A DNA stretch of 64,000 nt from Lacticaseibacillus rhamnosus (GTDB lineage Bacteria > Bacillota > Bacilli > Lactobacillales > Lactobacillaceae). Positions 5,817-13,013 of the stretch are shown here, in pieces (the stretch's first letter is position 1; each line of letters begins with the position of its first letter). The notes below the pieces were generated by a model, which was not told the DNA's origin, did no database searches, and saw nothing but the letters and a program-made list of their open reading frames with translations. The translations under genes were made by a program, and so were the position numbers. The DNA lies in NCBI RefSeq assembly GCF_900636965.1, contig NZ_LR134331.1, forward strand, positions 558,001-622,000, in the 5' to 3' direction.

Positions 5817-6068
5817 ATTAAAAAACCTCCTTAAAGGTACTTAGAACTACTTACATTTTAAAACAACATGAACTATTTAACACCCGGAGGCGCATGTTTA
5901 TTTTAATAAGGTGGAATTCTCCGGGTTTATATTTTTGAATTATATAGGTATGACCACTTTTTGTAGCGCGGGATATCACTTACTTATGAACGGTTAAAGT
6001 TGGCTAGACGAAGATCATTTAAAAACTAATTATTCGAAAAGAAGACGCGAATAAAATAAGGTCAAAGG

Positions 6069-6097
6069 TTGCTATCGATCTTACATTTAGTTAGTAT
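6069..6097 (+). promoter_or_regulatory. Candidate promoter of the cysE-cysK leader
   Basis: TTGCTA (6069-6074), a 17-base spacer and TAGTAT (6092-6097) precede the leader reading frame by 30 bases. The -10 box matches only four of six positions; TATAGT at 6097-6102 is an alternative. Confidence 0.45.
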
Positions 6098-6126
6098 ATA
6101 GTTACTGAAAGGGAGGGTATTAAAAT

Positions 6127-6207
6127 ATGGCAAACCTTATTGGTAACAAGCGATGTTGGCGCTATCAGCTTTATCAGGATATCCTCCTGATGTGTTCGTG
6201 CAGGTGA
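6127..6207 (+). CDS. Putative 26-residue leader peptide with terminal Cys codons
   Basis: A small reading frame with a good ribosome binding site, GGGAGGG, nine bases before ATG. It encodes MANLIGNKRCWRYQLY and then QDILLMCSCR, with Cys at codons 10, 23 and 25, the last two directly before the stop. It lies 96 bases upstream of cysE, in the position of an attenuation leader peptide. The hairpin ATCAGGA/TCCTGAT (6173-6179 with 6185-6191) sits just before the Cys codons, and CCTCC at 6183-6187 is complementary to the GGAGG of the cysE ribosome binding site. I infer that translation of this frame senses charged tRNA-Cys. The frame could instead be fortuitous; no homologue comparison was possible. 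Confidence 0.55.
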   Translation: MANLIGNKRCWRYQLYQDILLMCSCR

Positions 6208-6303
6208 GACATCGGCAGTATTTTGCTTAACGGTGTCTGCAAGCAATCGTTTCAAAATTTTGCCGGTTCATGCGAGTCAATTAGCCGGGTTGGGAGGTGA
6301 ACC
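6208..6303 (+). promoter_or_regulatory. Structured leader between the Cys leader frame and cysE
   Basis: AGACATCG (6207-6214) can pair with CGGTGTCT (6231-6238) or, over six bases, with upstream CGATGT (6151-6156), so two mutually exclusive folds exist. TTGCTT/AAGCAA (6223-6228 with 6241-6246) gives a further stem. There is no T-box core (no GGTGG-ACCACC type sequence) and no SAM-riboswitch pattern that I can see. Confidence 0.5.
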
Positions 6304-7131
6304 TTGACAGAAGCACCACTTAAAATCGGGATTCTCAACGTGATGCACGACAAAGCCGATACCAAAACGCGGCTGCAACACGTTTTGAGCCACACCGATA
6401 TCCCAGTTGAGTTGCATTTTTACTATCCCATGACCCATTACGCTGGTCGGGAAGTACCGGAAGCGGTGAGCTCGATTCTGGAGCCGCTGGATATTCACGA
6501 AGCGGCAACGATGGACGGGTTCATCATCACCGGCTCCCCGATTGAAACGCTGGAATTTGATCAGGTTCACTATATCGCCGAGGTGCGGACGCTGCTAAAG
6601 ACATTAGGTCAGCATGTGCCCAACCAAATGTACCTGTGCTGGGGCGGGATGGTGGCGCTAAATTACTTTTTCGGCGTCAGCAAGTTGATTCTTCCGCACA
6701 AGTTATTCGGCGTTTATCCGCAAACAATTCTTGAACCGCACCCATTTTTAAAAGGTTTAAAAGAAGGCTTTAAGTCCCCACATGCTCGGTATGCCGAGAT
6801 GGATGTACGCGATATTCGTAACGATCCCCGCTTAACGATCAATGCGACAACAACGAAGGGGAAACTCTTCATGGTGACGGAACCGACTGACACCCAAACG
6901 TTTATCTTTTCGCATATTGAATATGACCGGTGGGGCCTGGATTCGGAATACAAGCGGGAAGTGGCCGCACACCCTGAGATTAGCTATAAACGGGCTAAAC
7001 ACTATTACCATCACAAAAACGATTATGACCATCCGAAGTTTAATTGGAAGAAAACGCAGCGAACGATTTTTGACAATTGGGTTCGCCACATCGCGGATCA
7101 TCGCAATGAAAACCGTTCGCCGATTATTTAG
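6304..7131 (+). CDS. cysE: Serine O-acetyltransferase of the MetA (homoserine transsuccinylase) family
   Basis: The 275-residue protein belongs by sequence to the homoserine O-succinyltransferase (MetA/HTS) family. It has FIITGSPIE near residue 73, the nucleophile Cys112 in YLCWGG and the His204-x-Glu206 pair in SHIEYDRWG. From published work on Lactobacillus casei, the MetA-like gene directly upstream of cysK acetylates L-serine rather than homoserine and was proposed to be named cysE; the gene order here is the same. It therefore makes O-acetylserine, the CysK substrate, in the cytoplasm. The start is TTG at 6304, six bases after GGAGG (6293-6297). A 12-base gap separates it from cysK, so the two form one operon. 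Confidence 0.85.
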   Translation: MTEAPLKIGILNVMHDKADTKTRLQHVLSHTDIPVELHFYYPMTHYAGREVPEAVSSILEPLDIHEAATMDGFIITGSPIETLEFDQVHYIAEVRTLLKTLGQHVPNQMYLCWGGMVALNYFFGVSKLILPHKLFGVYPQTILEPHPFLKGLKEGFKSPHARYAEMDVRDIRNDPRLTINATTTKGKLFMVTEPTDTQTFIFSHIEYDRWGLDSEYKREVAAHPEISYKRAKHYYHHKNDYDHPKFNWKKTQRTIFDNWVRHIADHRNENRSPII

Positions 7132-7143
7132 GGAGGCTTTATT

Positions 7144-8073
7144 ATGGTGACAGCAGCAGATAATATTACAGGTTTAATTGGCAATACGCCGCTACTCAAG
7201 CTCAATCGCGTTGTACCTGAAGGCGCCGCGGATGTTTATGTCAAGCTGGAATTCTTTAATCCCGGTGGTTCAGTCAAGGACCGGATTGCCTTAGCGATGA
7301 TTGAAGACGCTGAATATAAAGGGGTCTTGAAGCCAGGCGGCACCATTGTTGAGCCAACGTCCGGCAACACCGGCATTGGCCTGGCACTGGTTGCGGCCGC
7401 AAAAGGTTACCACCTCATCATTACCATGCCGGAAACAATGAGTGTTGAGCGGCGAGCCTTGATGCGTGGTTACGGAGCCGAACTCATTTTGACGCCGGGT
7501 GCCGATGGAATGCCGGGAGCGATCAAAAAAGCTGAAGCATTGAGCAAGGAAAATGGCTACTTCTTGCCAATGCAATTCCAGAACCCCGCTAACCCAGACG
7601 TCCACGAACGCACGACCGGACAAGAGATCATCCGTTCATTTGATGGTGGCACCCCGGATGCCTTTGTAGCCGGTGTCGGCACAGGCGGAACACTCACCGG
7701 GGTTGGTCGGGCTTTGCGTAAGATTAACCCAGATGTGAAAATCTATGCGCTGGAAGCGGCGGAGTCACCAATGCTAAAAGAAGGCCATGGCGGCAAGCAC
7801 AAGATTCAAGGGATCTCAGCCGGCTTTATTCCAGACGTCTTAGATACGAACCTCTATCAAGACATCATTGAAGTCACCAGCGACCAAGCTATCGACATGG
7901 CTCGCCACGTCAGTCATGAAGAAGGCTTCCTACCAGGCATTTCCGCTGGCGCCAACATTTTCGGTGCGATTGAAATCGCAAAGAAACTCGGCAAAGGCAA
8001 GAGTGTCGCCACAGTAGCACCGGATAATGGTGAGCGGTATTTGTCGACAGATTTGTTTAAGTTTGATGATTAG
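7144..8073 (+). CDS. cysK: Cysteine synthase (O-acetylserine sulfhydrylase)
   Basis: A pyridoxal-phosphate enzyme that replaces the acetyl group of O-acetylserine with sulfide to give L-cysteine. The cofactor lysine is Lys45 in GGSVKDRIA, the substrate loop is PTSGNTG at 71-77, and the phosphate-binding Gly/Thr loop VGTGGTLTG follows near residue 180. At 309 residues it has the usual length for CysK. It begins 12 bases after cysE with GGGAGG as ribosome binding site, and is followed by a strong terminator, so cysE-cysK is a closed two-gene pathway from serine to cysteine. Confidence 0.95.
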
Positions 8074-12727: not shown

Positions 12728-13000
12728 ACAAAAAATCCGCCCTTGCCTATTAATAGACAAGGACGGATTCTTTCCGCGTTACCACCTTGATTAGTCGAAA
12801 TGGTCGACTCGCTCTAAGTACGACACATCTTGATGTGTGATACTCTAACTCAGTAACGGGAGTGCCCGTCAGTTGCTTGCGGTCGCCGTTTGCAACTGAA
12901 TGCTTTAAAAGACCATCTTCACCAGTTCCCGATCATTGTCTTGCACCAAAATGACAACTCGCTGAGGATCTTCGCCTGGGTACTCATCTTTTCGCTTCTA
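12728..13000 (-). promoter_or_regulatory. T-box leader, Met specifier, upstream of the ABC/trans-sulfuration operon
   Basis: Read on the minus strand, Stem I opens with AAAAGATGAGTA and closes with TCTTTT, leaving the specifier loop TGAAG-ATG-G; the specifier ATG (Met) is at 12916-12914. The T-box core AAGGTGGTAACGCGG lies at 12789-12774. It is followed by a terminator (AATCCGTCCTTGTCTA and complement, then T run, 12771-12728). Uncharged tRNA-Met should bind the specifier and T-box and prevent termination. Confidence 0.92.
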
Positions 13001-13013
13001 AGATATTGACATC

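Follow-up and report, generated by a model that had tools for sequence, protein, structure and literature searches.

The window analysed here, a 64,000-nucleotide stretch of the Lacticaseibacillus rhamnosus genome, carries a cysE-cysK operon preceded by a short open reading frame (ORF) with three Cys codons. When 30 genomes of the genus were searched at the DNA level, the region was matched in five, the window genome included. Among these five species, which we take to be the casei group, the records give names for L. zeae and L. chiayiensis alone. The operon and its upstream region comprise the following features:

6069..6097, + strand: putative promoter (TTGCTA and TAGTAT, 17 nt apart), identified by eye, in a stretch largely conserved in the five casei-group sequences
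6110..6116, + strand: Shine-Dalgarno (SD) sequence of the leader, AGGGAGG, identical in the five casei-group species
6127..6207, + strand: leader ORF of 26 codons, reading MANLIGNKRCWRYQLYQDILLMCSCR, of the same length and frame in the five casei-group species
6172..6192, + strand: predicted hairpin H1, within the leader ORF immediately ahead of Cys23, with CCTCC in its 3' arm
6199..6245, + strand: predicted hairpin P2, spanning the leader stop, with AGACATCG (6207-6214) pairing with CGGTGTCT (6231-6238)
6265..6303, + strand: possible start-sequestering pair, GGTTCA (6265-6270) with TGAACC (6298-6303), a complementarity noted by eye
6292..6297, + strand: SD sequence of cysE, GGGAGG
6304..7131, + strand: 'cysE', predicted MetA/HTS-family acyltransferase with a TTG start (Pfam HTS 206.5 bits, cut-off 27)
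7144..8073, + strand: cysK, cysteine synthase A (TIGR01139 433.4 bits, cut-off 350.95)

Judging from its profile matches, the first gene of the operon codes for an acyltransferase of the MetA/HTS family and not for a hexapeptide CysE. Its matches to the NCBIfam models MetA_acetyl and MetA_succinyl are both under cut-off, and no hexapeptide CysE (TIGR01172) reaches the cut-off in the window's genome (best match 55.1 bits, cut-off 210.65). The L. paracasei counterpart (metA in strain ATCC 334) was named cysE in PMC6004538, whose text states, via an earlier paper, that it is a serine acetyltransferase.

The promoter was absent from the output of a consensus promoter scan and is hence given as putative; transcription would start near 6104, just ahead of the leader SD sequence. 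By eye, a conserved block (6025-6100) extends upstream of and across this promoter in the casei group, and in some relatives it contains a palindrome-like ATTCGCGAAT, possibly a regulator site.

The leader ORF and its conservation

The initial annotation had described a 26-codon frame with a good ribosome site, and this frame is present, led by a strong SD sequence; the motifs that it had singled out (CCTCC at 6183-6187, GGAGG at 6293-6297 and the two arms of P2) are likewise where it had placed them. The Cys codons are numbers 10 (6154-6156), 23 (6193-6195) and 25 (6199-6201). Taken alone, neither the Cys count, which is near chance, nor a CCTCC upstream of GGAGG is striking: of the 46 SD-led ORFs in the window with lengths of 15-40 aa, three have at least three Cys (the leader being counted among them), and of the 25 GGAGG-started ORFs of at least 100 aa, three have CCTCC at most 130 nt upstream.

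All five casei-group species keep the 26 codons, the SD sequence, the start and the stop, with no indels in 81 nt, and the spacer between leader and cysE measures 96, 84, 84, 91 and 85 nt. The distance from the SD sequence to the ATG is 10 nt in the window genome and 5 nt in the other four. Ten leader residues are invariant, among them R9-C10-W11 and L21-M22-C23. Cys10 and Cys23 are kept in the five species and Cys25 is found solely in the window genome, so that the terminal Cys codons stressed by the initial annotation are both present here, but codon 25 is non-Cys in the other four; codon 10, on which it had laid no stress, is one of the two conserved Cys codons. No adjacent Cys codons occur in any of the five leaders. 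Variable columns number 10, 12 and 8 of 27 at the three codon positions, respectively, and dN/dS, where computable, is about 0.6 to 1.7, which argues for no protein-level constraint beyond a few codons. What is kept is thus the reading frame with two of its Cys codons and not the whole peptide. This scarce protein-level constraint and the frequency of Cys in comparable frames of the window would suit an ORF that exists by chance, a reading that is very unlikely given that the same frame, with its SD sequence, start, stop and two Cys codons, is kept in five species out of five.

Relatives that keep the gene without the frame, which the initial annotation had regarded as evidence against a leader, exist in part: a comparable frame is absent from seven inspected non-casei Lacticaseibacillus loci (L011, L012, L013, L015, L017, L041 and L064), a comparison from which the divergent same-genus locus L101 was excluded. 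ORFs with one or two Cys, seen in L011, L012 and L015 in a loose ORF scan, were taken as incidental. By eye, these three leaderless loci contain, directly ahead of cysE, a promoter-like block similar to that of the casei group. Together with the conservation of the promoter block in all five casei-group species, this similarity is what one would expect if a DNA-binding regulator controlled the operon from the conserved promoter and the ORF were incidental; such control is quite unlikely, as it leaves unexplained both the kept frame with its Cys codons and the leaders with adjacent Cys codons found in relatives (see below).

RNA structure between the leader and cysE

H1 is the best-supported local structure predicted for the casei-group leader, the fold z scores of its region (codons 15-24) being -3.10, -2.45, -2.47, -3.13 and -0.83 in the five species. 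At the place of P2 a hairpin is predicted in all five species, with differing letters and no unusual stability in any of them (z 0.14 to -1.47). The possible start-sequestering pair has a counterpart, AAGGTT with AACCTT or AATCTT, in the folds of L008, L009 and L010; in L007, as in the window genome, it is a complementarity noted by eye.

According to the initial annotation, a ribosome waiting at the Cys codons would cover CCTCC and thereby free the cysE start. This mechanism could not be established, the pairing being altered in four of the five species and the modelled accessibility showing no switch. CCTCC reads CCCCC or CCACC in the other four casei-group species, and the exact CCTCC-GGAGG pairing was rejected as a switch because of these altered letters; the conservation of the frame, Cys10 and Cys23 in the group does not extend to this motif. 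The opening energy of the cysE start is 9.3 kcal/mol in the window genome (sixth least accessible of 29 window genes) and 5.3, 8.1, 7.7 and 6.9 kcal/mol in the other four species, which straddle the window median of 6.8, so unusual sequestration of the start across the casei group was rejected as well. With the ribosome modelled in four states, opening energies were 7.6-9.9 (window genome), 6.3-7.9, 8.5-8.7, 7.9-9.1 and 6.9-9.9 kcal/mol; release of the SD sequence by ribosome position was rejected, as these values follow no common trend in the five species.

In another form of the same proposal, the cysE start would be paired with codons 17-23 of the leader and released by a ribosome stalled at Cys23 or Cys25. 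This form, which seems doubtful, is one version of the explanation preferred below, and the probabilities of the two overlap. The best duplex of the whole ORF with the cysE start falls within leader nt 47-76 in all five species (-14.1 to -17.0 kcal/mol) and includes the H1/CCTCC stretch, with letters that differ among species, and the poor accessibility of the start in the window genome would also suit this form. However, shuffles give p values of 0.066 to 0.124 per species, the species not being independent, and the controls come close, since an equally strong pairing with the gene's own upstream sequence is predicted for 1 to 4 of 28 window genes, and each leader finds an equally good partner in 0 to 9 of 28 unrelated starts. 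The stretch, moreover, is predicted to form the local hairpin H1, and the modelled opening energies do not drop when the ribosome hides it.

Cysteine T-boxes sense the charging of tRNA-Cys by direct binding between the tRNA and the RNA. None was found by Rfam at the gathering threshold before the cysE-cysK operon of the window, as the initial annotation had held; it had also assigned T-boxes to the methionine genes of the window, and a single one was detected in the whole window at that threshold (12756-13001, minus strand). Rfam on 40 of 62 ortholog loci gave three T-boxes (L026, L028 and L056), all of them downstream of the gene by coordinates. No intrinsic terminator was seen between leader and cysE in the casei group. 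The best match to Rho in the window's genome has 37.8 bits (cut-off 509.45), and Rho-dependent control of the leader was rejected on this ground.

Cys-codon leaders in other Lactobacillaceae

Ortholog loci of the gene (97 gathered, 65 + 32, with matches under about 155 bits excluded from the first set) were reduced to 83 distinct upstream regions by dropping 14 near-duplicates. Within 400 nt upstream, an SD-led ORF of 6-45 aa containing Cys-Cys (CC leader) was found in 34 of the 83 regions, and one containing Cys-Cys-Cys (CCC) in 28, counts in which related rows are not independent. Forty dinucleotide shuffles gave a mean of 2.0 (maximum 5) for CC and 0.1 (maximum 1) for CCC, and the background in the rest of the same loci was 13 CC ORFs in 626,510 strand-bases (0.008 per 400 nt). 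CC leaders are absent from the other 49 of the 83 regions. Carriers include Companilactobacillus kimchii, C. paralimentarius, C. mishanensis and C. suantsaicola, as well as Liquorilactobacillus uvarum and L. capillatus, Limosilactobacillus gastricus and Lactobacillus ruminis.

Hairpins resembling terminators accompany these leaders, although the finder used was permissive (hairpins up to 110 nt, without shuffle control) and was passed by 34 of 35 loci, the exception being L023; folds were inspected for 16 ortholog loci and 5 hexapeptide-cysE loci. In Companilactobacillus-type loci a strong hairpin with a T-tract lies between the CCC (or CC) codons and the gene, and in 14 of 15 of them the last leader codons and the stop can pair with the stretch before the hairpin (-5.2 to -8.7 kcal/mol, values without shuffle control); in the fifteenth, L100, this pairing is weak (-2.8). 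In four loci of one genus (L025, L027, L030 and L085) the terminator-like hairpin contains the Cys codons in its 5' arm, where a stalled ribosome could block the hairpin directly, and L035 and L089 were also flagged for Cys codons in a 5' arm. The combination of CC or CCC leaders with terminator-like hairpins in these relatives fits classical transcription attenuation.

In a cysE tree of 81 rows (two short proteins of the 83 were left out), the casei-group sequences cluster with nine other rows (support 96/88). A tandem pair of Cys leaders occurs in seven of these neighbours (L018, L020, L022, L069, L076, L082 and L089), and the other two, L014 and L021, have no Cys leader. The first leader of L018 has a weak ribosome site and its second one a single Cys near the end; the second leader of L076 continues beyond CCC and stops 11 nt past the start of the gene match. 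A T-run lies immediately before the start codon of the second leader in all seven tandem loci. In three of them (L069, L076 and L082) this T-run forms the tail of a terminator-like hairpin, which starts right after the Cys run of the first leader. Complementarity between the first leader codons and the cysE start was found in L069 (p 0.036), L082 (p 0.004), L076 (0 of 500) and, more weakly, L018 (p 0.056), and is absent in L089, L020, L022 and the five casei-group leaders (p 0.16 to 0.77); this feature was rejected.

Cys leaders also precede other cysteine operons. A CC leader on the gene's strand lies upstream in 6 of 30 TIGR01172 hexapeptide cysE loci (L103, L105, L106, L115, L117 and L118), with terminator-like hairpins in all five that were folded; by eye, in L103, L105 and L106, a GATCAAG past the leader stop can pair with a CTTGGTC within the terminator-like hairpin. 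Of the cysK2-type loci, the 30 with the best matches were examined: a CC leader lies within 420 nt upstream in 26 of them and is absent from L137, L140, L156 and L158. In L. paracasei the cysK2-ctl1-cysE2 operon is preceded by a palindromic terminator whose sensor is given as not identified in the text of PMC6004538. The exact pattern of this palindrome was found in 2 of 317 genomes of the family (loci L135 and L136), with no matches in the window's genome. On the minus strand of both loci, the palindrome (locus position 1501) is immediately preceded by an SD-led ORF that contains CCC; in L135, a gene resembling cysteine synthase and the beginning of a gene for a PLP enzyme follow the palindrome. 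The CCC leader reads MSQSMFNAINCCCRATRFWRCSAC in one of these loci and is a close copy of it in the other. The published terminator belongs to another operon than that of the window (PMC6004538), and the CCC leader that precedes the same kind of palindrome is a possible sensor for it.

A probable cysteine leader peptide for cysE-cysK

The comparisons argue that the frame probably encodes the leader peptide of a cysteine attenuator that acts on the cysE (metA-like)-cysK operon. An SD-led, putatively translated short ORF before a biosynthetic operon, one mark of such attenuators, is found in all five casei-group species; consecutive codons for the amino acid under control, another mark, are lacking in the casei group and present in the 34 ortholog regions with CC leaders. 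The initial proposal of a Cys-codon leader controlling cysE-cysK is borne out to this extent, that is, by the frame kept in five species and the CC and CCC leaders of the orthologs, but not in its specific mechanism. We infer that a ribosome translating the frame would pause at codon 10 or 23 until charged tRNA-Cys arrives and that the stalled ribosome would change how the RNA of about 100 nt separating the leader from cysE folds, cysteine shortage thereby leading to higher cysE-cysK expression. In the casei group, control would act mainly on cysE translation, with the start being freed from pairing with the leader or the spacer. This translational level is suggested by the lack of a terminator and of a Rho over cut-off, together with the change in translation efficiency of cysE and cysK, with no change in mRNA, described for L. 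rhamnosus ATCC 53103 under osmotic stress (PMC8656396, from the text of which the identity of that cysE with the window's gene is not confirmable).

Published expression data on the operon cut both ways. In L. paracasei RNA-seq, cysE and cysK were higher (log2 1.2 and 1.1) in cysteine-deficient than in methionine-deficient medium, and in RT-qPCR the change of cysK was not significant, the authors assuming constitutive expression and reporting that an in-depth analysis of the operon's 5' UTR yielded no hint of a mechanism (as given in the text of PMC6004538). The RT-qPCR result would agree with the main rival explanation, namely that the frame is a relic of an inherited, working CC-type leader whose tandem Cys codons and terminator disappeared in the casei group, where cysE-cysK would now be expressed nearly constitutively; the CC leaders of rows close by in the cysE tree and the single Cys codons of a leader with no terminator seen are also in its favour. 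It is nevertheless unlikely, as the frame, length, stop, SD sequence and two Cys codons have been kept in all five species without indels while the spacer changed in length, and the RNA-seq change of cysE in L. paracasei amounts to about 2.3-fold (PMC6004538).

No description of a cysteine leader peptide in Lactobacillaceae was found in the open-access literature searched. Elsewhere, Cys-codon leader peptides precede cys operons of Mycobacterium and P. acnes and the cbs gene of B. longum (PMC1262725), likewise as short ORFs before cysteine genes and, in Mycobacterium, with no conserved terminator hairpin among the features reported in that text; those leaders contain Cys runs near the stop and Rho was proposed to act on them, whereas the window leader has single Cys codons and its genome no Rho over cut-off. 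The uORFC-8-2 before cysS of Rhodobacterales has tandem Cys codons in the first stem and an intrinsic terminator (PMC8632094), and L025, L027, L030 and L085 resemble it in having Cys codons in a hairpin arm. It differs from the window leader, with no tandem Cys and no terminator seen, and belongs to another gene and another phylum (PMC8632094). For the Firmicutes, ribosome-mediated attenuation has been proposed for the leader peptides before hisS paralogs of bacilli, with histidine instead of cysteine as the amino acid (PMC2965389). A cysteine T-box has been described in L. paracasei before a transporter operon (PMC6004538).

A wider reading, to which we give slightly less than even credence, is that much of the Lactobacillaceae relies on leader peptides to sense cysteine, in three types of operon (metA-like cysE-cysK, cysK2-ctl-cysE2 and hexapeptide cysE), one group having two such leaders in tandem before a single operon and the casei form acting on cysE translation with no need of an intrinsic terminator or of Rho. 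The leader would add a cysteine case to the leader peptides of Firmicutes, where T-boxes are the usual expectation. Cysteine metabolism matters for sulfur flavour in cheese, and the leader ORF provides a testable mechanism for the change of the operon with cysteine seen in L. paracasei (PMC6004538).
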